From positions 1 to 64,000 of the forward strand of contig JAITIP010000038.1 of assembly GCA_031279415.1 (NCBI GenBank): 64,000 nucleotides of DNA. Direction: 5' to 3'. This DNA comes from Candidatus Endomicrobium procryptotermitis (GTDB taxonomy: Bacteria; Elusimicrobiota; Endomicrobiia; Endomicrobiales; Endomicrobiaceae). Below are positions 1 to 18,846 of this stretch, in pieces. How positions within the stretch are numbered: position 1 is the stretch's first letter; every line of letters begins with the position of its first letter. The translations under genes were made by a program, and so were the position numbers. Below the pieces are notes generated by a model that was not told where the DNA came from, did no database searches, and saw only the letters and a list, made by a program, of their open reading frames with translations.

Positions 1-120
1 TTGGCGTGAGTTAGGAGTTGATGTCAGAGCTTGGCGTGAGTTAGGAGTTGATGTCAGAGCTTGGCGTGAGTTAGGAGTTGATGTCAGAGCTTGGCGTGAG
101 TTAGGAGTTGATGTCAGATT
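1..120. repeat. Four tandem copies of a 30-bp unit
   Basis: Four head-to-tail copies of a 30-bp unit, identical except for the last two bases of the fourth. The unit is a multiple of three and in frame with the minus-strand phage gene, giving a 10-residue repeat (ALTSTPNSRQ). The array may continue beyond the window start. There are no spacers, so it is not a CRISPR array. Confidence 0.95.
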
Positions 121-6665: not shown

Positions 6666-7397
6666 CTAGTAACCAATATTGTTATCGGGAATATTTGCTA
6701 TAACTTTTCCTGAAGTATTGGCAGCCTCTTTAATTCTTCTTGCATTGCTGTCAATACTCTTTTCTATTTCGAGACAATTTTGATATTCTCTAAAACTTTC
6801 AGCATAATCAAAGCCCATTTCATTTTTATATTTAAATATTAAACCTAATAGCAAAAGATGTGATTCAATTTCGCTTTTATCGCTGTCTTGCGTGAAATAT
6901 TCTTTAATGAGCAAATTATTTTCTTCATCAAAATTATATACGCCGCTTTTACTTTTATAAAAAAAACTTATTTTTGAATATAAAGAAGGATGTGGCATAA
7001 ACAGAATATGATTATTTTGCAAAATAAAATTTTCAGATATAGATGATGATGTCATGTTAATTCTATAAGCTATATACTTATCGTATGTTATGCTGTTAAT
7101 AGTTTTTTGTTGTGTTTCATTATAAATATAATCTGTTATAAAAGATTTAAAGCCTGGCGCAATAAGTTCTAGATTATACCCGTCTAAGACTGAATTATAT
7201 GCGGTTTGTTTATCAGCGGAAAATTGGCAAAATTTAACCATCTTTTGCCACTGATAGTCCATTAATATTTGTTCGAGAGAGCGGTTAAGCAATCCTAACA
7301 GCCGAAGGATTGTATAATCCTGAGTATTATTAATTGAACGTGGTGCAGAAAATCCTAAAGTCAAACAAGCCTGCTGGATTATTTCTAAACAATTCAT
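6666..7397 (-). CDS. Tail adaptor / head-tail connector-like protein
   Basis: 243 aa, with GAGGGGAA just upstream of the ATG at 7397. The start (EIIQQACLTLGFSAPRSI) and an early WQKMVKF segment resemble the P22 gp4/T7 gp11-like adaptor proteins of podoviruses, which dock on the portal and close the head after packaging. The remainder is mixed alpha/beta with conserved-looking DGYNLELIAPGFKSF. It lies between the small head proteins and the stabilisation/tail gene, as expected of a connector. Assignment rests on weak motif similarity plus position. Confidence 0.55.
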   Translation of the reverse strand: MNCLEIIQQACLTLGFSAPRSINNTQDYTILRLLGLLNRSLEQILMDYQWQKMVKFCQFSADKQTAYNSVLDGYNLELIAPGFKSFITDYIYNETQQKTINSITYDKYIAYRINMTSSSISENFILQNNHILFMPHPSLYSKISFFYKSKSGVYNFDEENNLLIKEYFTQDSDKSEIESHLLLLGLIFKYKNEMGFDYAESFREYQNCLEIEKSIDSNARRIKEAANTSGKVIANIPDNNIGY

Positions 7398-7432
7398 AAA
7401 TTCCCCTCATAAATTCCCCCTGTCGTTGTTAA

Positions 7433-7640
7433 GCAGAGCCGTTCTAACCTGCCGTCCGCAAGGACTGCTGCCTGCTAAGGCTGCCGTCCGCAAGGACTGC
7501 TGCCTGCTAGGGCTTGCGCCCCTTTATTATTGCGGCTTCCAACTGCTAGGGCTTGCCGTTTTAACCTGCTGCCTGCTAAGGCTGCCGTCCGCAAGGACTG
7601 CAGAGCCGTTCTAACCTGCTGCCCGCAAGGGCTGCTAGCC
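7433..7640. repeat. Mini-hairpin repeat cluster 1
   Basis: GC-rich block filling the gap between the adaptor gene and the small head-protein gene. It contains 12-nt mini-hairpins with GCAA or GCTA loops: GTCCGCAAGGAC (7454-7465, 7486-7497), GCCTGCTAAGGC (7470-7481), GCCTGCTAGGGC (7502-7513), the inverted form GGGCTTGCGCCC (7510-7521) and GCCCGCAAGGGC (7621-7632). Successive hairpins in the first run start exactly 16 nt apart, separated by TGCT or TGCC. A linker module AGCCGTTCTAACCTGC occurs twice. Confidence 0.9.
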
Positions 7641-7940
7641 ATTTGAGCTGGTGCTGGATGGTGTGCCGAAATTTTCAGTAAGCTCGATAAATCCGTAATT
7701 ATTTGCGGCAATAGGATAAATGGCCTTTCCTGTTGATCCTGCTTGTGCGGCCTGTCCTGTTGCTGTAAAAGATGCGCTGACAACAACCCATTGAACTGCT
7801 GTAATATTTGAGGCGGCTTTTACATATTCCACAATTTTACCGTCGGTTGTTCTACCTTTGGTACCGAGTTCAAATTGCATTGTATCAGTTGCTGCTAAAT
7901 TGTTTGCACCAATTATTGTGCTTATGGATTTATTGCTCAT
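7635..7940 (-). CDS. Small phage head protein (decoration-like)
   Basis: 101 aa from the ATG at 7940, chosen because AAGGAG lies 8 nt upstream; a longer in-frame extension would overlap the previous gene's coiled coil. The sequence SIIGANNLAATDTMQFELGT followed by GRTTDGKIVEYVKAA resembles a common small protein next to podovirus capsid genes, with alternating hydrophobic strands typical of a beta-rich decoration or head-fibre protein. It is five bases downstream of the preceding gene. Its last codons border repeat cluster 1, and the GTPSSTSSNG tail may derive from repeat encroachment. Confidence 0.6.
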   Translation of the reverse strand: MSNKSISTIIGANNLAATDTMQFELGTKGRTTDGKIVEYVKAASNITAVQWVVVSASFTATGQAAQAGSTGKAIYPIAANNYGFIELTENFGTPSSTSSNG

Positions 7941-7944
7941 TTTT

Positions 7945-8415
7945 TTAATTCTCCTTATTTTTTGTAATTTTTTCAAGCTTTTTTGTAAGATTTTCATTAT
8001 TTTTTGTAATTTCTTCAAGCTTTTTTGTAAGATTTTCATTATTTTTTGTAAGTTGATCTAAAGCATTTTTTGTGTCATCCAGTTCCTTTTTAGTTTGGGA
8101 GGCGGCTTCATTAGCGCCCACAACAACTTTACCTGGATTATTTATAAACGATTGCCAAGCGTCTGCAAACCTTTTTTTTAATGTTTCGCTTTTCTCATCT
8201 TTATCTAAAATCTCATGGCTTACAATATCTTTAACAGCGCCTGTTTGTACGGTGATATTTAATAAAATGCGCTTTTTAAAAATCTGTTTGCCGCTTTTTT
8301 TTGACTGCCATATATCAAGTGTTTCTTCCTCAATAAAACAGCCTAAAACATTTTCTATGTGTTTACCTGATTCAATTGCTGGATAATATGGGGTCTGGGT
8401 AAAAATTTTAGCCAT
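7945..8415 (-). CDS. Phage protein with C-terminal coiled-coil repeats
   Basis: 156 aa from the ATG at 8415, which has a strong AGGAGGAG 8 nt upstream; the longer frame starting further right would read through repeat sequence. The N-terminal 95 residues are globular and unrecognised. The C-terminal part is a coiled coil built from 14-residue repeats (ENLTKKLEEITKNN, then a near-identical copy), visible in DNA as a 42-bp duplication near 7965-8055. It lies between the capsid gene and the small head-protein gene. Its 5' end is duplicated upstream as a broken copy. Confidence 0.65.
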   Translation of the reverse strand: MAKIFTQTPYYPAIESGKHIENVLGCFIEEETLDIWQSKKSGKQIFKKRILLNITVQTGAVKDIVSHEILDKDEKSETLKKRFADAWQSFINNPGKVVVGANEAASQTKKELDDTKNALDQLTKNNENLTKKLEEITKNNENLTKKLEKITKNKEN

Positions 8416-8667
8416 TTTGCTTATTCTCCTCCTAATATTACGCTGTTCTAACTTGAGTGCGCAAGTAGTGCTTGCACACTGCAAAGGACTGGCACATTTT
8501 TTTGACTGCCATATATCAAGTGTTCCTTCCTCAATAAAACAGCCTAAAACATTTTCTATGTGTTTTTACCTGATTCAATTGCTGGATAATATGGGGTCTG
8601 GGTAAAAATTTTAGCCATTTTGCTTATTCTCCTCCTAATATTACGCCGTTCTAACTTGAGTGCGCAA
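8294..8667. repeat. Tandem duplication of a gene start plus flanking repeat
   Basis: A segment of about 170 bp (8294-8465) recurs at about 8496-8667 with only a few differences. It includes the first codons, Shine-Dalgarno and upstream region of the 156-aa phage gene. About 30 bp of mini-hairpin material separates the copies (GTGCTTGCACAC lies there), and both copies end at GAGTGCGCAAG, suggesting recombination between hairpin repeats. Confidence 0.85.
8498..8618 (-). pseudogene. Truncated duplicate 5' end of the 156-aa phage gene
   Basis: The duplicated start codon (8616-8618) and its AGGAGGAG ribosome site are intact. A two-base insertion shifts the frame, so translation would stop after about 20 residues (MAKIFTQTPYYPAIESGKNT). 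Beyond that the sequence matches the parent gene in another frame and then ends in repeat DNA. Confidence 0.8.
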
Positions 8668-8812
8668 GGACTGCCGCCTGCTAAGGCTGCTGCCCGCTAG
8701 GGCTGCAGAGCCGTTTTAACTTACCGCCCGCAAGGACTGCTGCCTGCTAAGGCTGCAGCCCTACTAGCGGGCAGCTGTCCACTAAGGCTTGCGGTGTGCA
8801 AGCACTAGGACT
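8640..8812. repeat. Mini-hairpin repeat cluster 2
   Basis: Fills the gap between the duplicated gene start and the capsid gene. Clear units are GCCTGCTAAGGC (8676-8687) and, exactly 16 nt on, GCCCGCTAGGGC (8692-8703). Further copies follow, including GCCTGCTAAGGC near 8741, a longer palindromic variant with GCCC and GGGC arms near 8758-8772, and GTGTGCAAGCAC near 8794. The linker GCAGAGCCGTTTTAAC is also present. The whole 8416-8804 gap without an intact gene consists of this cluster and the duplication. Confidence 0.85.
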
Positions 8813-9761
8813 TTAAAACTCCCTGTAAATTAGCATTTCCCATAGTTAGATTACCCATGAACAGCATTGGATATACTTCAGCGTCTTGATTATATGGAAG
8901 TCTTTCGCTGTCCAGTTTAAAATTTGCATCTTTATGAGCTTTAAAGAACAAATAATCGAGATTAAGTGTATAAGCATGCTGGGTGGGAACATATGGATCA
9001 AAAAACACGGGAGTTCCTTCATATTCCAGAGTTTTAAAACCGGCGTCGCCTTTAACATCTACAGTAATACGTTTTATTGATTGCAGATAAGTTTTATATA
9101 TTGAAAAATATACTTTATCCATAACAATCATTTGAGGTGTATCTGTACCTCTGGTGCATCTTAAGACGAGTTCGTCAAGCCCCTGAATGAACTCCTGTCC
9201 TGTTGGAAGTGTCCCGACGGATATACCCTGTTCTGCATTAAATGAATATACTTGATTTCTCCAAAATGGATAAGCGGCCCGGTCAATACCGCCGACAACT
9301 CCGGTTGAAGGGTTATCACTTATTAAAGCCTGTAACCCTGTAAGCTCTTTACCGGACGAACCCGTACCATCAGAAAATAAAGAAGCGCCGATTTTATTCT
9401 GCATAGTTTTTTCGCAAACAGAAATTCTAGCTTTTAACAAATTATGTTTCCTAGTTTTAGAATCTGCATTTTTACGAATTTCTTCTCCTGAAATTACAAC
9501 ATTTGCATTTGCCTGTTTCCACGCAAATTTAGCGGCAGTCAATACGGGGTTAGCTGTAACTTCAAGGAGTTCAAAACCTGAATACCATTTAAACGTTGAG
9601 TTCTCAGCATACATAAGGTCTTCTTCTATTTCATCTCCTCCGTCAAGAAGCGTTGTATTACTACCTGCTTTAAGTCTGTTAAGTAATGCATTATGTTCAA
9701 GCACATTATCAAATAAAGTATCTGAATATGCGTTAAGTGTTGCAACAATTAAATCTCTCAT
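8805..9761 (-). CDS. Phage major capsid protein
   Basis: 318 aa, AAGGAAA before the ATG at 9761. The pattern is that of a common HK97-fold capsid family of tailed phages: an N-terminal ATLNAYSDTLFDNV helix, FKWYSGFELL, WKQANANVVISGEEI, and in the middle LFSDGTGSSGKELTGLQALI with GGIDRAAYPFWRNQ. The C-terminal half contains strand-rich segments (TPQMIVMDKVYFSIYKTYL, YEGTPVFFDPY). No separate protease is visible and the N-terminus lacks a long delta domain. It lies directly downstream of the scaffold gene, the usual portal-scaffold-capsid order. Confidence 0.85.
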   Translation of the reverse strand: MRDLIVATLNAYSDTLFDNVLEHNALLNRLKAGSNTTLLDGGDEIEEDLMYAENSTFKWYSGFELLEVTANPVLTAAKFAWKQANANVVISGEEIRKNADSKTRKHNLLKARISVCEKTMQNKIGASLFSDGTGSSGKELTGLQALISDNPSTGVVGGIDRAAYPFWRNQVYSFNAEQGISVGTLPTGQEFIQGLDELVLRCTRGTDTPQMIVMDKVYFSIYKTYLQSIKRITVDVKGDAGFKTLEYEGTPVFFDPYVPTQHAYTLNLDYLFFKAHKDANFKLDSERLPYNQDAEVYPMLFMGNLTMGNANLQGVLKS

Positions 9762-9785
9762 TTTTAATTTCCTTTTTAATTTTTT

Positions 9786-11060
9786 TTATTCAAGCCTTTG
9801 AGCTTCTTCTCTTATAATGTCATCAAGCGTTTTTTTATACTTTCTTTCTGTTCCTATTGCCATTGAATCTGTTACGCCTATAGAACTTGCTTTTTTTGCC
9901 TTTTGCGCTGTAATTGCCTGTCGTGAATTATTGTCTGTAAAACCTTGCGGGTGAGGTGTTGTTATAAAATTGCCGTCTGCTAAGGCTTGCTGTCCTAAAT
10001 TGCTGCCTGCTAAGGCTTGCTGTCCTAAATTGCCGTCTGCTAAGGCTTGCTGTCCTAAATTGCCGCCTGCTAAGGCTTGCTGTCCTAAATTGCCGCCTGC
10101 TAAGGCGCCAGACCCGTTGTTAATTTCCCTGAGGACTTTTTCACGTACTTTAGGATTTAACCAGATAGCTTTTTCATATAAATCTGTTAAATCTGTAATA
10201 CCTGTTTGGGTTGCCAGTTGAGCCATATCCTGCTCAACTTCTTGGAAATAAGGATATTTTTTATTACCTTTTTCGTCTTGTGCATTTACAAATTTTTCCA
10301 GTTCATTTTCCAAATCTTGCTGAGCCCGTTTAACGTGCAAGGCTTTTAACTGCCTATTTTGTATTTCAAGGGGAGCAAGTCGATTATATACTGGGTCTGT
10401 TGCTCTTTGCGCCTGCTGTTTTAATCCATTTACTAACGTGTCAAAATTTATGCCTCTTTGAACCATTACATTAAAAATAAACCCTACTGGGTCTGCCGTT
10501 ATAAGCCTGTCAGCTTCAACTAAACTATTTATATATTGTGCTTTACTTATATTATTTTCTTCAAAATATTTATCGTGTTCACTTAACAAATCATTAATAT
10601 TGTTATATTCTTTTTCGAGTTTTTTAAGTTCTTGGGTCTTTCTATCATAAACGCTTTGAATATTTTTAAACATACCCATCATACGTTTTTTGCCGTCGAT
10701 ATCAAGAGTATTAAAAAAAGCTTTTTCTTCATCAGCCCAATACTTTAACGGTTCAATAACTTCTGTTACAGCTTTTTGAGAGTTAGACGGTTCTATATTT
10801 TTATTTATTCTGCTTTGTTCTAACTCATTGACCTTTAAATCAGCTATTTTTAAAGCGTCTGTAATATTCTTAGCTTTTGGTGCATGCTCGTACAAATTTT
10901 GTGCCTGAACTTCGTTGTGTTGCTCTGTAATATTCTTAGCTTTTGGTGCATGCTCGTACAAATTTTGTGCCTGAACTTCATTGTGTTGCTGTGTAGGTGC
11001 ATGCTCGTATAAATTTTGTGCCTGAACTTCATTGTGTTGCTGTGTACCATTGTTTTTCAT
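9786..11060 (-). CDS. Phage scaffolding protein with two sets of in-frame repeats
   Basis: 424 aa from the ATG at 11060, with AGAGGC 7 nt upstream; a longer frame to 11105 lacks a ribosome site. It is charged, helical and Q/N-rich between portal and capsid genes, the normal place and composition of a scaffold that is removed during head maturation. The N-terminus has three copies of a repeat around QHNEVQAQNLYEHAP, two of them followed by KAKNIT. Near the C-terminus there are four copies of NLGQQALAxG, encoded by a 30-bp DNA repeat that contains the same GCCTGCTAAGGC mini-hairpin as the intergenic clusters. The last 60 residues are basic and helical. Confidence 0.7.
   Translation of the reverse strand: MKNNGTQQHNEVQAQNLYEHAPTQQHNEVQAQNLYEHAPKAKNITEQHNEVQAQNLYEHAPKAKNITDALKIADLKVNELEQSRINKNIEPSNSQKAVTEVIEPLKYWADEEKAFFNTLDIDGKKRMMGMFKNIQSVYDRKTQELKKLEKEYNNINDLLSEHDKYFEENNISKAQYINSLVEADRLITADPVGFIFNVMVQRGINFDTLVNGLKQQAQRATDPVYNRLAPLEIQNRQLKALHVKRAQQDLENELEKFVNAQDEKGNKKYPYFQEVEQDMAQLATQTGITDLTDLYEKAIWLNPKVREKVLREINNGSGALAGGNLGQQALAGGNLGQQALADGNLGQQALAGSNLGQQALADGNFITTPHPQGFTDNNSRQAITAQKAKKASSIGVTDSMAIGTERKYKKTLDDIIREEAQRLE
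9970..10113. repeat. Mini-hairpins with 30-bp period inside the scaffold gene
   Basis: Five 12-nt hairpins (GTCTGCTAAGGC or GCCTGCTAAGGC) repeat with a 30-bp period, joined by TTGCTGTCCTAAATTGC. The period keeps the reading frame on the minus strand. The G/T change in the first stem gives a wobble pair and alters one residue (Asp versus Gly). Confidence 0.9.
10865..11045. repeat. Three in-frame repeats near the 5' end of the scaffold gene
   Basis: Two full copies of about 66 bp and one shorter copy of the same unit. They encode QHNEVQAQNLYEHAP with or without KAKNIT. Copies are nearly identical at the DNA level, with single-base differences such as GTT/ATT, indicating recent expansion. Confidence 0.85.
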
Positions 11061-11112
11061 GTTTTTGCCTCTGTTATATTTTTTCCTGCTTGTGCGCATA
11101 AGCACTGTCAGC

Positions 11113-11266
11113 CAAGCCGTTCTAACCTGCCGTCCGCAAGGACTGCCGCCTGCTAGGGCTTGCGCCCTGCAAAGGGCTTGCGCCCCTTTATTATTGCGGC
11201 TTCCAACTGCTAAGGCTTGCCGTTTTAACTTGCCGCCCGCTAGGGCTGCAGAGCCGCCGCTAGACC
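11113..11266. repeat. Mini-hairpin repeat cluster 3
   Basis: Gap between portal and scaffold genes. Units: GTCCGCAAGGAC (11132-11143), GCCTGCTAGGGC (11148-11159), GGGCTTGCGCCC (11156-11167 and 11174-11185) and GCCCGCTAGGGC (11235-11246). The first two start 16 nt apart. A longer shared module (GCGCCCCTTTATTATTGCGG and onward to CCGTTTTAAC) recurs almost unchanged in clusters 1 and 5, and in part in cluster 4. The portal stop codon lies at the edge of this cluster. Confidence 0.9.
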
Positions 11267-13218
11267 TTGTTGTCTTTATAAGCCTTTATAATATTATCTT
11301 GAGTTTTAAACTTTGCATCATTAATAATTTTCTGTTTTTCGAGTTCAAGTTCTTTTCCGTCTTTAATGGTTTCGAGTTCAAGTTCTTTTGTTTTTATCTG
11401 AGCTTTTAACATTTCAGCCTGAGCTTTTAACATTTCAGCCTGAGCAAGTACCTGTTCGGGAGGAGGAGGAGGAGGCTGTTTAGGGCTTTTAATTTTTTCA
11501 ATTAAAGCTTCAAGTCCGCTTTCAATTTCTCCCTGTAGTTCTAAAGGAAGACCTGTGCCGGAAAGAGCAAAAATGATCAGCCTTATAATACTGTCTGAAA
11601 AATCTGGATTTTGTGAAATAAAAGGCAGCATTGTTTGAATTATTCTAAATATAAATTCAATCATTGTACTGCGGATTTTAAAGCGTCGATTTTCGTCTTC
11701 AAAAATATCGTTGTCGGATTCGACACTAAAAAGATAATCACGCAATTTATTATCTTCGATATACGCTTTAATTTCTAACCAAGAAGGCAGAGAATAAAAT
11801 TTAATAGTCTTTGGGTTTAACGGTGGAAGATTTACGGGTATACCTTTTTGTATTCCCTGTTTTATTGTCTGCTGCCTTACTTTCATAAGCTCTTCAAACT
11901 GAATTTTTTCTTCATCAGAAGGCAGATTAACACCGGTAATATTTTGTAAAGTTTCAATGCTGAATAGTTCACATATAAGTGAACAAACAATTTTATATAT
12001 TTCTTTAATATAATTATTTATTTTTTCTTGCCTGCTGTGTAATCTTAAATTTCCGAACTTACTTTTTTTACTTATAGCTTCAGCTGTTTCATTTACGGCG
12101 CTTATGCTTCTCATAATATCGCTTATACCGGTTATCTCATAAATATTATTTATTAAATTCTGCTGTTGATTATACAGTCCTTCGGCCACTTTCTGTTTCA
12201 TTTCAATAGGGTCGTATGTAAATAGTTTATCAATTCCAAGTTCATTAATCTGGGAACTTACTTCAACTGCAATATATTCATTATCGCCTGCATTATTTAA
12301 TTTATCTGCGATTTGACGGTTAGAAGCTGAATATAAGGCTCTGGACTTTATGCTTTTAATTAAATTGGCTATTCTCTGTGAACATATGCTTAAATCGTGT
12401 GCTTCTTCCTTATACACCTCATATTCTGGAGTAGCTTTCAAATTGCTGTTATTTAATATAAATCTAAACGGTTCAGGTGTTGGAAAAAATCCCTCTATGC
12501 CATAGGGGTCTGTTTCTTCTTTTAAAATATTACGACACTTATCAGATACAAAATAGACTTTTTTATTACTTTTATCCCACATTTCCCAAACATCAATTAA
12601 CTCTTTTTGAGATTCAGAGGCTTTAAATTGTGGTTTTATTAACTCAGCATTGGGAAACTGCTTATAAATATCTTCTTCTGTCATTTTATGGCGTCGAGCT
12701 ATCCACCAAACTTGGTTCCATGTTCTCCCGGAGGAAATCAAAAAGTCTTTATAATAAACATGTTCAATTTTTACACGTTCGTTTGTTACTTTTGTATCAT
12801 TGCCAAGCTGTTGATATTGAGCATTAAAAACGCACCATAAAACGCCCTGACCGCTTAAAAGAATATCAAGTTTAAAAGATTCAACGACTTTTTTTATATT
12901 ATCGGTATTAATGCATATTTCTACAGCCTTTTTAATTATGTCTATAACAGTACTATAAAATAATTTCATTTTAGAATTGGTCAAAGTTTCTTTAGAAGTA
13001 CGCGGTCGGATAATTAAACGAGGTAAAGATGTAAACAATGCGGCAAACAATATTTGAGTATTTGCAAACAGTATATTATAGCGTTTATTTTTTTGTGCTT
13101 TTTTCTCTTCTGAAGCACCGCACGAATAAATATTTTCATATTCGTTTACATTATTAATCCAATCTTTACAGCGTTTTTTAGCATTATCTAAGCGCTCTAT
13201 AAGTTCATTTTGATTCAT
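11260..13218 (-). CDS. Phage portal protein
   Basis: 652 aa, GGGAGAT before the ATG at 13218. The N-terminal half has typical podovirus portal features: an early helical segment with NIYSCGASEEKK, FAALFTSLPRLIIRPR, DILLSGQGVLWCVFNA, and VYYKDFLISSGRTWNQVWWI followed by ARRHKM. The portal ring is the DNA gateway and terminase docking site. The C-terminus is unusual: a run of six prolines (about residue 593) is followed by AQAEMLK repeated twice and a charged coiled coil rich in E and K. The gene lies between the small ORF after terminase and the scaffold. Confidence 0.85.
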   Translation of the reverse strand: MNQNELIERLDNAKKRCKDWINNVNEYENIYSCGASEEKKAQKNKRYNILFANTQILFAALFTSLPRLIIRPRTSKETLTNSKMKLFYSTVIDIIKKAVEICINTDNIKKVVESFKLDILLSGQGVLWCVFNAQYQQLGNDTKVTNERVKIEHVYYKDFLISSGRTWNQVWWIARRHKMTEEDIYKQFPNAELIKPQFKASESQKELIDVWEMWDKSNKKVYFVSDKCRNILKEETDPYGIEGFFPTPEPFRFILNNSNLKATPEYEVYKEEAHDLSICSQRIANLIKSIKSRALYSASNRQIADKLNNAGDNEYIAVEVSSQINELGIDKLFTYDPIEMKQKVAEGLYNQQQNLINNIYEITGISDIMRSISAVNETAEAISKKSKFGNLRLHSRQEKINNYIKEIYKIVCSLICELFSIETLQNITGVNLPSDEEKIQFEELMKVRQQTIKQGIQKGIPVNLPPLNPKTIKFYSLPSWLEIKAYIEDNKLRDYLFSVESDNDIFEDENRRFKIRSTMIEFIFRIIQTMLPFISQNPDFSDSIIRLIIFALSGTGLPLELQGEIESGLEALIEKIKSPKQPPPPPPEQVLAQAEMLKAQAEMLKAQIKTKELELETIKDGKELELEKQKIINDAKFKTQDNIIKAYKDNKV

Positions 13219-13232
13219 AAATATACATCTCC

Positions 13233-13550
13233 CTAATAACTACCCTTTATAAACGTTTCTATAAGCGTTTCATAAATAATATATTTATTTCTAGTTTTTA
13301 TGGTTAAAGCCTTTCCATTTAATAATATTTTTATCTTTACATTTAAAATATTATTTGTATCAATACCATAATTAAACCCTTTAATTGCGCCTACATTTCT
13401 TAAAGCTTTTAAAAACCCGCCGTAATATCTATTTAAAAAACTTAACAAATCTTTATTATTGTTACCTTTATAATTAGGAATTTCAGCGCTGATAACATTA
13501 AGCCTTTTCACTATTTCATTTTTAAGCGATTCGACCGAATTTAAATCCAA
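13233..13550 (-). CDS. Small phage protein of unknown function
   Basis: 105 aa. The best start is a TTG at 13550 with AAGGAAAC 5 nt upstream; the frame overlaps the last codons of the terminase gene by about 10 nt, implying translational coupling. The protein is basic and mixed alpha/beta (FLNRYYGGFLKALRNVGAIKG, then NVKIKILLNGKALTIKTRNK). No family was recognised. Position between terminase and portal suggests a packaging or head-assembly accessory. Confidence 0.55.
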   Translation of the reverse strand: MDLNSVESLKNEIVKRLNVISAEIPNYKGNNNKDLLSFLNRYYGGFLKALRNVGAIKGFNYGIDTNNILNVKIKILLNGKALTIKTRNKYIIYETLIETFIKGSY

Positions 13551-14899
13551 TTCTGTTTCCTTTTTTTCATACTTGACAAAATATCATTAAATGTAATACC
13601 TTTTTTTTGTTCTTTAGCTTTTTCAAAAGGGCTTATATTTTGAAGATTATAAGCCAGTGCTGTATATCTTAAAGCGTCTGCACAATGAGAAGCCCAATCA
13701 TGCAATGGTTCTTGTTTATATATTCCTAGTACATCATTCCACTGTTTTTTATAATTTCTTATTGCTTCAATACCTTCTTTACATTTACTTTCATTAAAAT
13801 AAAATTTAGGAAAAAGAATTCTAACGGCATTAATTGAATCCCAAAGCGGCATAGCTGCTATAACTTCGACATCAAAGCCTTTTATATTTCCATAGCTCTG
13901 TGCAACTTCTCTGCTGCTTTTACCTGTTGACCAATTTTTATTTTCTGCATCATGGGGCAGAAACATTTTTTTAATTTTATATTCATGATTTTCAATCCAC
14001 GCCAAATAATGGGGTAAGGCTTCCATATTATTTTCATAATAATCCAAGAATAGAATTTTATTTTTAAGAAATTGTACAATCCAAATTGCTGTAGCGTCGC
14101 TTATACCGATATCGAACACTGCATAAACTGGATGTTCTGTATCAGGTTTAATATCTCCGATTCTGCCTTCAATTTCTGCCGCTGATATTTCATGTTTATA
14201 AACAGCACCTGCTACCATATTTTGAAAAAGTCCAAATTTAAATCGATTTTTTTCGTCTATACTTAGTCCGTCGAGAATATTTAAATACTCTTTAGGAAGA
14301 TTTTGTATATTATCCTCAGGATTAATAAATATATGTGCCACGCTTGACGGGTCTATCGGTGTATCATCCTGAGGGTCTTTTAACTGAATAAACTTTTTAT
14401 AACTCCAATGACCTTTAGTTGTTGGGTTCTCATCCAAATAAGCTATTTTACATAAATCATTCTTTTGCGAAAATCTCGTATTAGCTTTTAAATAACTTTT
14501 GTATGATATCTCAGAGACTTCATTAAAAAAGCCACCGCTAAACTCCAGCCCTAACACTTTATCAGTTCTTATTTTATCATCAAGTCCAACCAGCCAAATT
14601 TCGCTCCCATTGTTAATAAATTTGATAATCCAATCACTTTTATTTATTTTATATGGAACGCCTTTAAAGAAAAGGTTTAACACAAAGGGCAGGCTCTGCA
14701 TTCCAATAGAATGTTTAACATCAATAAACTGCTGTCTGAATATAGCATGCCTAGCTTCTTTAACTTTCAATGAGCGTATAATCAAATTTCTTAAAAATAA
14801 GGTAGTCTTTCCACTCCTAGAACCTCCGACAGCTAAAATTTCACGGGCACCGCTTACGCATAAATTACGTAACTCTTTTTGTTTTTGTGTAAGAAGCAT
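13541..14899 (-). CDS. Terminase large subunit
   Basis: 452 aa from the ATG at 14899, preceded by AAGGAT; an upstream in-frame start would overlap the small-subunit gene. It is the packaging motor: an N-terminal ATPase with Walker A GGSRSGKT (residues 25-32), an arginine-rich HAIFRQQF segment, and a Walker B-like FSGGFFNEVSEI; then a C-terminal RNase H-like nuclease beginning YAVFDIGISDATAIW with later acidic residues near DALRYTALAY. Length and motif order match terminases of podoviruses and related tailed phages. It lies directly after the small subunit, five bases apart. Confidence 0.9.
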   Translation of the reverse strand: MLLTQKQKELRNLCVSGAREILAVGGSRSGKTTLFLRNLIIRSLKVKEARHAIFRQQFIDVKHSIGMQSLPFVLNLFFKGVPYKINKSDWIIKFINNGSEIWLVGLDDKIRTDKVLGLEFSGGFFNEVSEISYKSYLKANTRFSQKNDLCKIAYLDENPTTKGHWSYKKFIQLKDPQDDTPIDPSSVAHIFINPEDNIQNLPKEYLNILDGLSIDEKNRFKFGLFQNMVAGAVYKHEISAAEIEGRIGDIKPDTEHPVYAVFDIGISDATAIWIVQFLKNKILFLDYYENNMEALPHYLAWIENHEYKIKKMFLPHDAENKNWSTGKSSREVAQSYGNIKGFDVEVIAAMPLWDSINAVRILFPKFYFNESKCKEGIEAIRNYKKQWNDVLGIYKQEPLHDWASHCADALRYTALAYNLQNISPFEKAKEQKKGITFNDILSSMKKRKQNWI

Positions 14900-14903
14900 T
14901 AAT

Positions 14904-15416
14904 TTATAAATCCTTATCTTTGCTGTCAAAATTCAATGTAATATTGTTTGGGCTTTCAATATTTAAATTAAACCTATTATCATCAAAGTTAATACCTAAC
15001 AATTTAAAACTAAGTTCTATAGCTTTTATCCGTGCATTTTGCACCTTTTCTCTGGTATCTGTCGCAACTTCTTTTAACTCTCTACAAAGCTCGTCAAACA
15101 ATAAAGCGCTTTTAGCTGCTATAGGTACACGTAATTGATGTATTCTCCTTAAAACCTCTGGGCGGTTAGCTAGTCTAGATGCTCGTTCCCAAATAGTTTT
15201 ATTATTGGCTTTACTATCTGGATAAGCTGTGATAAAAGCTTCAGTAGCATTTTTCATTTCTAATGCGACTAAATGACAAAACTTTTCTATTCTAGAATCC
15301 TTAAAATATACAGGAATAGACAATAAAAATTCCCGTTCAAATTCTAGCTGCAAAGGGTTTTTAAATTTTGAATCTGAATTAATAATGAAATCCTTTGCTT
15401 TTATTTCTTTATCCAT
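14904..15416 (-). CDS. Terminase small subunit
   Basis: 170 aa, AGAGGT six bases before the ATG at 15416. A helical protein with a central motif of the terminase small-subunit family: FCHLVALEMKNATEAFITAY, then ASRLANRPEVLRRIHQLR, a DNA-binding helix-turn-helix arrangement, followed by a helical oligomerisation region. It would recognise phage DNA and recruit the large subunit encoded immediately downstream. As the first gene of the late run it follows the repeat-rich 1-kb gap. Confidence 0.8.
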   Translation of the reverse strand: MDKEIKAKDFIINSDSKFKNPLQLEFEREFLLSIPVYFKDSRIEKFCHLVALEMKNATEAFITAYPDSKANNKTIWERASRLANRPEVLRRIHQLRVPIAAKSALLFDELCRELKEVATDTREKVQNARIKAIELSFKLLGINFDDNRFNLNIESPNNITLNFDSKDKDL

Positions 15417-15449
15417 CTTTAAACCTCTTTACCTTTTGCCTATATCTTA

Positions 15450-15580
15450 ATGCCGTCCTACTGCAGAGCCGTTCTAACCTGCCGTCTGCTAAGGCTGCCG
15501 TCCGCTAGGGCTTGCGCCCCTTTATTATTGCGGCTTCCAACTGCAAAGTGCTTGCACACTGCAAAGTGCTTGCACACTGC
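15450..15580. repeat. Mini-hairpin repeat cluster 4
   Basis: Units GTCTGCTAAGGC (15484-15495), GTCCGCTAGGGC (15500-15511, exactly 16 nt later), inverted GGGCTTGCGCCC (15508-15519), and two GTGCTTGCACAC copies (15548-15559 and 15566-15577, 18-nt period). Starts with the linker GCAGAGCCGTTCTAACCTGC and includes part of the shared CCCCTTTATTATTGCGG module. Confidence 0.9.
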
Positions 15581-15674
15581 AAAGATTATTTTGAAGTCAC
15601 GAGAATTTAAAAAAAGAGTTTACTTTTTATAAATACTGCGTACCCCTAATGTGTACGCTTCCAAAATAATCTTT
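15581..15674. repeat. Near-perfect inverted repeat, 16/17-nt arms
   Basis: AAAGATTATTTTGAAG at 15581-15596 is the reverse complement of CTTCCAAAATAATCTTT at 15658-15674 apart from one inserted C. The arms flank about 60 bp of A/T-rich DNA. Could be an operator, an origin element, or the stem of a long structured transcript. Confidence 0.8.
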
Positions 15675-15680
15675 ATATAA

Positions 15681-15735
15681 CCTTGCATACTCCTTGCGTT
15701 GTTTCTAACTTTCCGTTTTTAAGCCGTATGCAAGG
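15681..15735. repeat. Perfect 10-bp inverted repeat
   Basis: CCTTGCATAC (15681-15690) and GTATGCAAGG (15726-15735) are exact reverse complements, 35 bp apart. This is compatible with paired protein-binding sites in the phage control region. Confidence 0.8.
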
Positions 15736-15796
15736 GTAAAAAAGGGCTAAAAAAAAGGCAAGCCCTATATATATAAGGGTAAAAAAGGGCTAAAAA
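15732..15796. repeat. 22-bp perfect direct repeat
   Basis: A 22-bp sequence beginning AAGGGTAAAAAAGGGCTAAA occurs at 15732-15753 and 15775-15796, with a 43-bp period. Between the copies is AGCCCTATATATATAAGGGT, itself able to fold with the adjoining AGGGCT. Two copies are too few to be called iterons, but the arrangement resembles a replication or regulatory site. Confidence 0.8.
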
Positions 15797-15869
15797 TGCG
15801 ATTTTTTGCATAATTTTTTTAATGTTATAGACGAAAAAACATTTTTAATTTTTTACATTTTGGATACGA

Positions 15870-16016
15870 CAGCAGTGCTTGCACACTGCAGTGCTTGCAC
15901 ACTGCAAAGTGCTTGCGCCCCTTTATTATTGCGGCTTCCAACTGCTAAGGCTTGCCGTTTTAACTTGCCGTCCGCAAGGACTGCTGCCTGCTAAGGCTGC
16001 CGTCCGCTAGGGCTTG
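15870..16016. repeat. Mini-hairpin repeat cluster 5
   Basis: Two GTGCTTGCACAC units (15875-15886, 15891-15902, 16-nt period), the shared CCCCTTTATTATTGCGG module, then GTCCGCAAGGAC (15970-15981), GCCTGCTAAGGC (15986-15997) and GTCCGCTAGGGC (16002-16013), again exactly 16 nt apart and separated by TGCT and TGCC. Confidence 0.9.
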
Positions 16017-16288
16017 TTATTTTTTTATGTTTTTATGTAAATACCATAGCTTTTAATATTCCCGCTTTTTTTTTCTTTTTATTATTATTCTCTTATTTTT
16101 ATAAAAAGATAAAAAAATAACAAAAATAAAAAAAACCCTTGATAAATAAGAATTTTTTCGTGTTATATATTTTTTATTTTCATGTTATTTTTAATAAAAA
16201 AAGGAAAAAAGAAAGGAATAAACCCGCCCCCGTTTATTATTATTGAGCTAAAATCAGAATTATAATAGATTTTTAAAAAACAGATAAC

Positions 16289-18796: not shown

Positions 18797-18846
18797 GCGC
18801 AAGCCCTTTGCAGGGTGCAAGCCCTTTGCGGTGCGCAAGCACTGTC
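18797..18846. repeat. Mini-hairpin repeat cluster 6
   Basis: Short cluster upstream of the YopX-like gene, in opposite orientation to most units: GTGCGCAAGCCC, GGGTGCAAGCCC and the perfect GTGCGCAAGCAC. It is the rightmost copy seen; none was found in the chromosomal part after 19.4 kb. Confidence 0.8.

Follow-up and report, generated by a model that had tools for sequence, protein, structure and literature searches.

How did a short hairpin repeat of intergenic regions come to be present, several times over and in frame, inside a prophage gene? The window in which this question arises comprises bases 1–64000 of a 75,845-bp contig from the 2.0-Mb genome of Candidatus Endomicrobium procryptotermitis (source genome, G000). 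Prophage late genes occupy the − strand at approximately 2.9–19 kb (amidase, tail, capsid, an open reading frame at 9786–11060, portal, and the large and small terminase subunits), and host genes, lptF/lptG, purH and ligA among them, begin at 24.8 kb. The open reading frame (ORF), which had no PHROG match, is probably the scaffold gene of the prophage on the basis of its position and homologues; no relatives of its product were found among annotated phages or in IMG/VR. Translation probably starts at the ATG at 11060 rather than at the GTG at 11105, since a GAGG motif lies seven bases upstream. At the contig end, window positions 1–118 contain a perfect 30-bp tandem repeat of unrelated sequence (3.9 copies), where the assembly probably broke.

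Table 1. Coordinates of the array, its host gene and the surrounding features (window positions; R1, covariance model described in the text).
Feature	Position	Strand	Evidence or remarks
Element copy 1 in gene, divergent leader GTTGTTATAAAATTGCC	9958–9986	+	R1 24.2 bits, E 3.3e-4 per genome
Element copy 2 in gene	9989–10016	+	R1 27.0 bits
Element copy 3 in gene	10019–10046	+	R1 27.5 bits
Element copy 4 in gene	10049–10076	+	R1 30.4 bits, E 3.7e-6 per genome
Element copy 5 in gene	10079–10106	+	R1 30.4 bits, E 3.7e-6 per genome
Putative scaffold gene with in-frame array	9786–11060	−	Flanked by capsid and portal genes; 7 other family genomes contain homologues
Second tandem repeat near N-terminus of scaffold gene, hairpin-free; 66/51-bp periods, QQHNEVQAQNLYEHAPKAKNITE	10858–11046	−	TRF
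Major capsid gene	8805–9761	−	phrog_9953
Portal gene	11260–13218	−	phrog_12082
Intergenic cluster; full copies 7438, 7555, 7605; 16-nt half units 7482, 7583	7438–7632	+	R1, sequence
Degenerate copy holding an additional 21-nt hairpin insert; lies in the first copy of the 203-bp duplication	8442–8477	+	R1 14.7 bits, sequence
Intergenic cluster; copies 8645, 8710; half units 8672, 8688	8645–8753	+	R1
Intergenic cluster between portal and scaffold genes; copies 11116, 11219	11116–11246	+	R1 44.0, 43.8 bits
Intergenic cluster upstream of terminase small subunit gene	15468–15511	+	R1 38.3 bits
Intergenic cluster; hairpins 15940, 15970 (30-bp spacing), 15986, 16002	15940–16013	+	R1 45.5 bits at 15954

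The original prediction of five in-frame hairpins with a 30-bp period, read as NLGQQALAxG, was confirmed. The hairpins (GTCT/GCCT-GCTA-AGGC) start on the + strand at 9975, 10005, 10035, 10065 and 10095 with a spacing of exactly 30 bp, although the draft assembly may misrepresent the number of units in 150 bp of nearly identical sequence. On the − strand each unit is translated as N L G Q Q A L A G/D G/S, and the array contributes about 50 amino acids at 10 residues per unit. The predicted intergenic clusters with a 16-bp period are also real and occur at five sites in the window (7454/7470/7486, 8676/8692, 11132/11148, 15484/15500, and 15970/15986/16002).

The same module is found between genes and in the gene, as had been proposed, but its unit there is a 28–29-nt copy with a 16-nt leader and not the 12-mer alone; five such copies, each a leader plus hairpin, make up the span 9958–10106. 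The full element of about 30 nt, (T)GYCGTTYTAAYTTGCC-GYSYGCWARSRC(Y), consists of the leader GYCGTTYTAAYTTGCC and a 4-4-4 hairpin; the 12-mer at its 3′ end is this hairpin, and the 16-bp unit corresponds to the 3′ half of the element. Across 97 copies from a congener, information content spans position −1 (T) to +28 (Y) and is near-random outside, therefore delimiting a discrete element. Non-genic hairpins are spaced at 16, 30 or 34 bp; those 30 bp apart are accompanied by the leader TTGCCGTTTTAACYTGCC (in the gene, TTGCTGTCCTAAATTGCC), and 30-bp tandems occur outside genes at 7541–7571, 11205–11235 and 15940–15970 of the window and in the congener at L128:1548/1578. The earlier notion of a 16-bp module re-amplified at a new, frame-preserving period was thus not borne out, as the unit of 30 bp corresponds to the whole element and forms tandems between genes as well.

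The stem is well maintained: 96.3% of stem cells are paired and 39 are changed on both sides, a level reached in 0 of 500 shuffles and not by slid controls. The Y/R hairpin pattern used to find some of the seeds introduces a mild bias into this covariation, outside which lies the change of the third pair from C-G to G-C. Loops are GNNA in nearly all copies. One frame of the element is stop-free, the consensus reading A-L-A-G-G-K-L-E-R-Q; in the gene the charges are lost, with N, G and Q replacing K, E and R.

The covariance model (R1) was built from 41 non-genic copies, the in-gene copies being left out, and it matches all five of the latter at per-genome E values of 3.7e-6 to 3.3e-4 (2-Mb genome). 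This agreement extends over leader and hairpin alike, and a DNA search with the intergenic cluster 11105–11260 reaches the gene array at E 1.5e-7, together with further chromosomal copies and many copies in the congener G052. Both results make it very improbable that the array is an ordinary coding repeat expanded by slippage and only coincidentally similar to the intergenic hairpins, a reading favored by the presence of other, hairpin-free tandem repeats in the same gene (10858–11046) and its neighbors (7948–8051, 8296–8668; TRF). A score-matrix control on reversed host sequence (1.23 Mb) gave a maximum of 18.1, as opposed to 30.0–34.8 for the four main in-gene copies, and the CTGCTAAGGC decamer occurs 16 times in the window with at most one mismatch (2.4 expected; 0 of 100 shuffles reach 16). 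Ordinary expansion had been expected to leave the block in all related phages and the hairpin nowhere else; five homologues were found to be devoid of the block (see below), and the hairpin does occur elsewhere.

Within the array, the leader of copy 1 is nearly identical to that of a chromosomal copy (L002:10077, GTTGTTATAAATTGCC) and one base longer; this copy is likely the oldest in the gene. Copies 2–5 share one identical leader, GCTGTCCTAAATTGC, which matches no intergenic copy, and therefore appear to have multiplied inside the gene.

The direction of transfer is addressed by the homologous genes and by the distribution of the element. The block of about 50 residues is absent from all five scaffold homologues aligned end to end, the closest of which is 37% identical; it lies between a conserved ..LYE.AIW.NP.VR.. 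region and a C-terminal LDDIIREE helix. A prediction of the protein without an alignment (mean pLDDT 46) is only suggestive in placing the array in a coil between the helical core and this helix. An allele of this phage with an empty site did not turn up, so that the exact boundary and the mechanism of insertion are tentative. An IMG/VR contig (L223) encodes a capsid 58% identical with no elements downstream; it starts inside the capsid gene, and the scaffold gene is missing.

Of the 26 R1 matches in the source genome, 13 fall in an 11-kb stretch of the prophage late-gene region (naive binomial 6e-23, a value that treats clustered copies as independent, which they are not). At least 102 matches occur in G052, in which no scaffold or portal relative was detectable, and almost none in the rest of the family and phylum. 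The single weak match outside the genus in the phylum-wide search (G310) appears to lie in a coding frame and is probably due to chance. No exact 20-mer was found in IMG/VR, and a two-unit pattern searched across 85k genomes gave one match, upstream of a gene in a Zoogloeaceae MAG (L026:305-336), with two 16-nt hairpin units (GCCCGCAAGGGC-TGCC-GTCCGCAAGGAC) and no leader; this match may reflect convergence. The copies in G052 are essentially intergenic: naive ORF calls include 6 of about 103, all near ORF ends or in short doubtful ORFs, no clear gene-internal copy was identified among the approximately 103, and inspection of the copies surrounded by open frames placed them close to the end of a gene, before a likely start, or in an ORF that is itself doubtful. 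At several G052 loci (L107, L130, L134 and others) further intergenic repeat modules, for example GACAAAGACTAAAGGAACG, stand ahead of many copies.

Since homologous scaffolds lack the block and G052 carries more than 100 copies with no detectable phage relative, sequence comparison argues that the element entered the scaffold gene and did not escape from it, in line with the predicted spread of the module into a gene. The opposite course, a repeat born in the scaffold gene that later spread to intergenic regions, had been offered as the other possibility and would agree with the element being densest in the prophage; against it stand the same G052 copies and the homologues without the block, as well as the scores of the in-gene copies, which are among the lower-scoring, derived ones (24–30 bits vs. 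36–45 for the main intergenic prophage copies), and its probability is accordingly very small. We consider it highly likely that the array represents five head-to-tail copies of a genus-specific miniature hairpin repeat of about 30 bp that entered from the dispersed intergenic population and expanded in situ.

A different explanation holds that the element is a functional RNA or DNA signal (termination, RNA stability, packaging or protein binding) and that the array was selected for this role. It draws on the compensatory changes in the stem, the strong concentration in the late-gene region and the single orientation common to all clusters there, although an element that depends on its hairpin to move would show covarying stems as well. 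Folding of the array mRNA equals that of shuffles (z 0.01), and that of the DNA strand is slightly but not significantly better (z −1.3). In two of the five in-gene stems (GTCT...AGGC), a G.T pair on the + strand becomes an A.C mismatch in the mRNA, and G.U versus A.C intermediates show no clear excess on either strand. None of six terminator-like sites (GC stem plus T run) in 7300–16100 coincides with a hairpin cluster, no Rfam match to a known structured RNA family was obtained, and copies between co-directional genes of G052 are oriented 37 times along and 32 times against transcription. A functional role is therefore unlikely; in the gene, the element probably does not act as an RNA device but is selfish or neutral and serves as a spacer that extends a disordered linker.

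REP sequences are short intergenic hairpin repeats, present many times per genome and sometimes clustered, with a RAYT (Y1) transposase. The element resembles them as a short, highly repeated intergenic palindrome but differs in its unit of about 30 nt, its 4-bp stem and the absence of a GTAG-type tag among the features seen. Membership in the REP/RAYT group failed, as Y1_Tnp (PF01797) had no match in either carrier genome (G000, 100% complete; G052, 93%); the domain is present in the congeners G049 and G050, each with only 1–2 weak element matches. A MITE was rejected because the hairpin stands at one end only and no consistent flanking (target-site) duplication occurs in 97 copies, and a CRISPR array because copies abut with 0–6 nt between them or are singly dispersed.

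In-frame palindromic repeats within genes are already known from Rickettsia (RPE; PMC10969869, citing Ogata et al. 2000 and 2002) and from yeast mitochondria, in which GC clusters are inserted in rps3/VAR1 (PMC4464245). RPE are likewise dispersed palindromic repeats of one genus located between genes and in frame inside them, with one stop-free frame and a tolerated added peptide; however, they measure about 100–150 bp, occur singly, and nearly half are in genes through many independent insertions. The present element is about 30 bp long and has a single 12-nt hairpin, located at one end, its other copies are essentially all intergenic, and its genic case is a fivefold tandem array in one phage structural gene; it works like RPE and is not claimed as a member. 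GC clusters share with it a GC-rich, short palindromic nature in an AT-rich genome and a mostly non-coding location, with some copies in a coding gene that change the size of the product, but they belong to an organelle and differ in sequence and length. PARCELs (PMC2996958) are also tandem coding repeats with DNA dyad symmetry and a mobile appearance; they are defined by a 25-residue amphipathic motif of proteins encoded in ORFs, whereas the repeat described here has 10 residues and a non-coding parent element, and is set apart by this description.

The array's period equals the length of the element, and an origin in few steps can be proposed. One copy would have inserted in a linker under low constraint, which joins the core of the scaffold protein to its C-terminal helix. 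With a length of 30 bp and a stop-free frame, it would have added 10 codons and left the gene unbroken. The 30-bp direct repeats could then have been multiplied to five by replication slippage or unequal recombination, each step being frame-neutral since 30 is a multiple of 3; other tandem duplications in the region show that such expansion is common here. No candidate for a dedicated transposase was identified. A hairpin with a GNNA loop on a single strand suggests that single copies may move by a replication- or ssDNA-linked mechanism. More speculatively, this may be a mobile micro-element of about 30 bp with a non-Y1 mover, near the smallest discrete dispersed repeats of bacteria, which, being frame-neutral and stop-free in one frame, invades coding sequences and expands as 10-residue repeats, the prophage serving as hot spot and possible vehicle.

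No description of a repeat of this kind in Endomicrobium or Elusimicrobiota was found in the literature searched, and the repeat family, from a termite-gut-type lineage, is apparently undescribed. The locus provides a clear bacterial/phage example of protein sequence that arose from repetitive non-coding DNA, in which the parent element, its ends, the source population and homologous genes without the block are visible together, and it raises the question of what moves a 30-nt hairpin when a REP-type transposase is undetected.

Additional modules accompany the element in the prophage. In a 203-bp tandem duplication at 8296–8668 (copies 97% identical), a 21-nt hairpin module, TAGTGCTTGCACACTGCAAAG, follows GCGCAAG in one copy and not in the other, showing a recent indel of such modules, either insertion or deletion. 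A second hairpin repeat, GTGCTTGCACACTGCAAA, with a period of 16–18, often stands beside the 30-nt element (15540–15584, 15872–15916, 18797–18840, 8462–8490). Finally, a segment of about 35 nt, GCGCCCCTTTATTATTGCGGCTTCCAACTGC, joins hairpins in four clusters (7515–7550, 11165–11215, 15510–15550, 15905–15950), which therefore appear to have been copied as composites.
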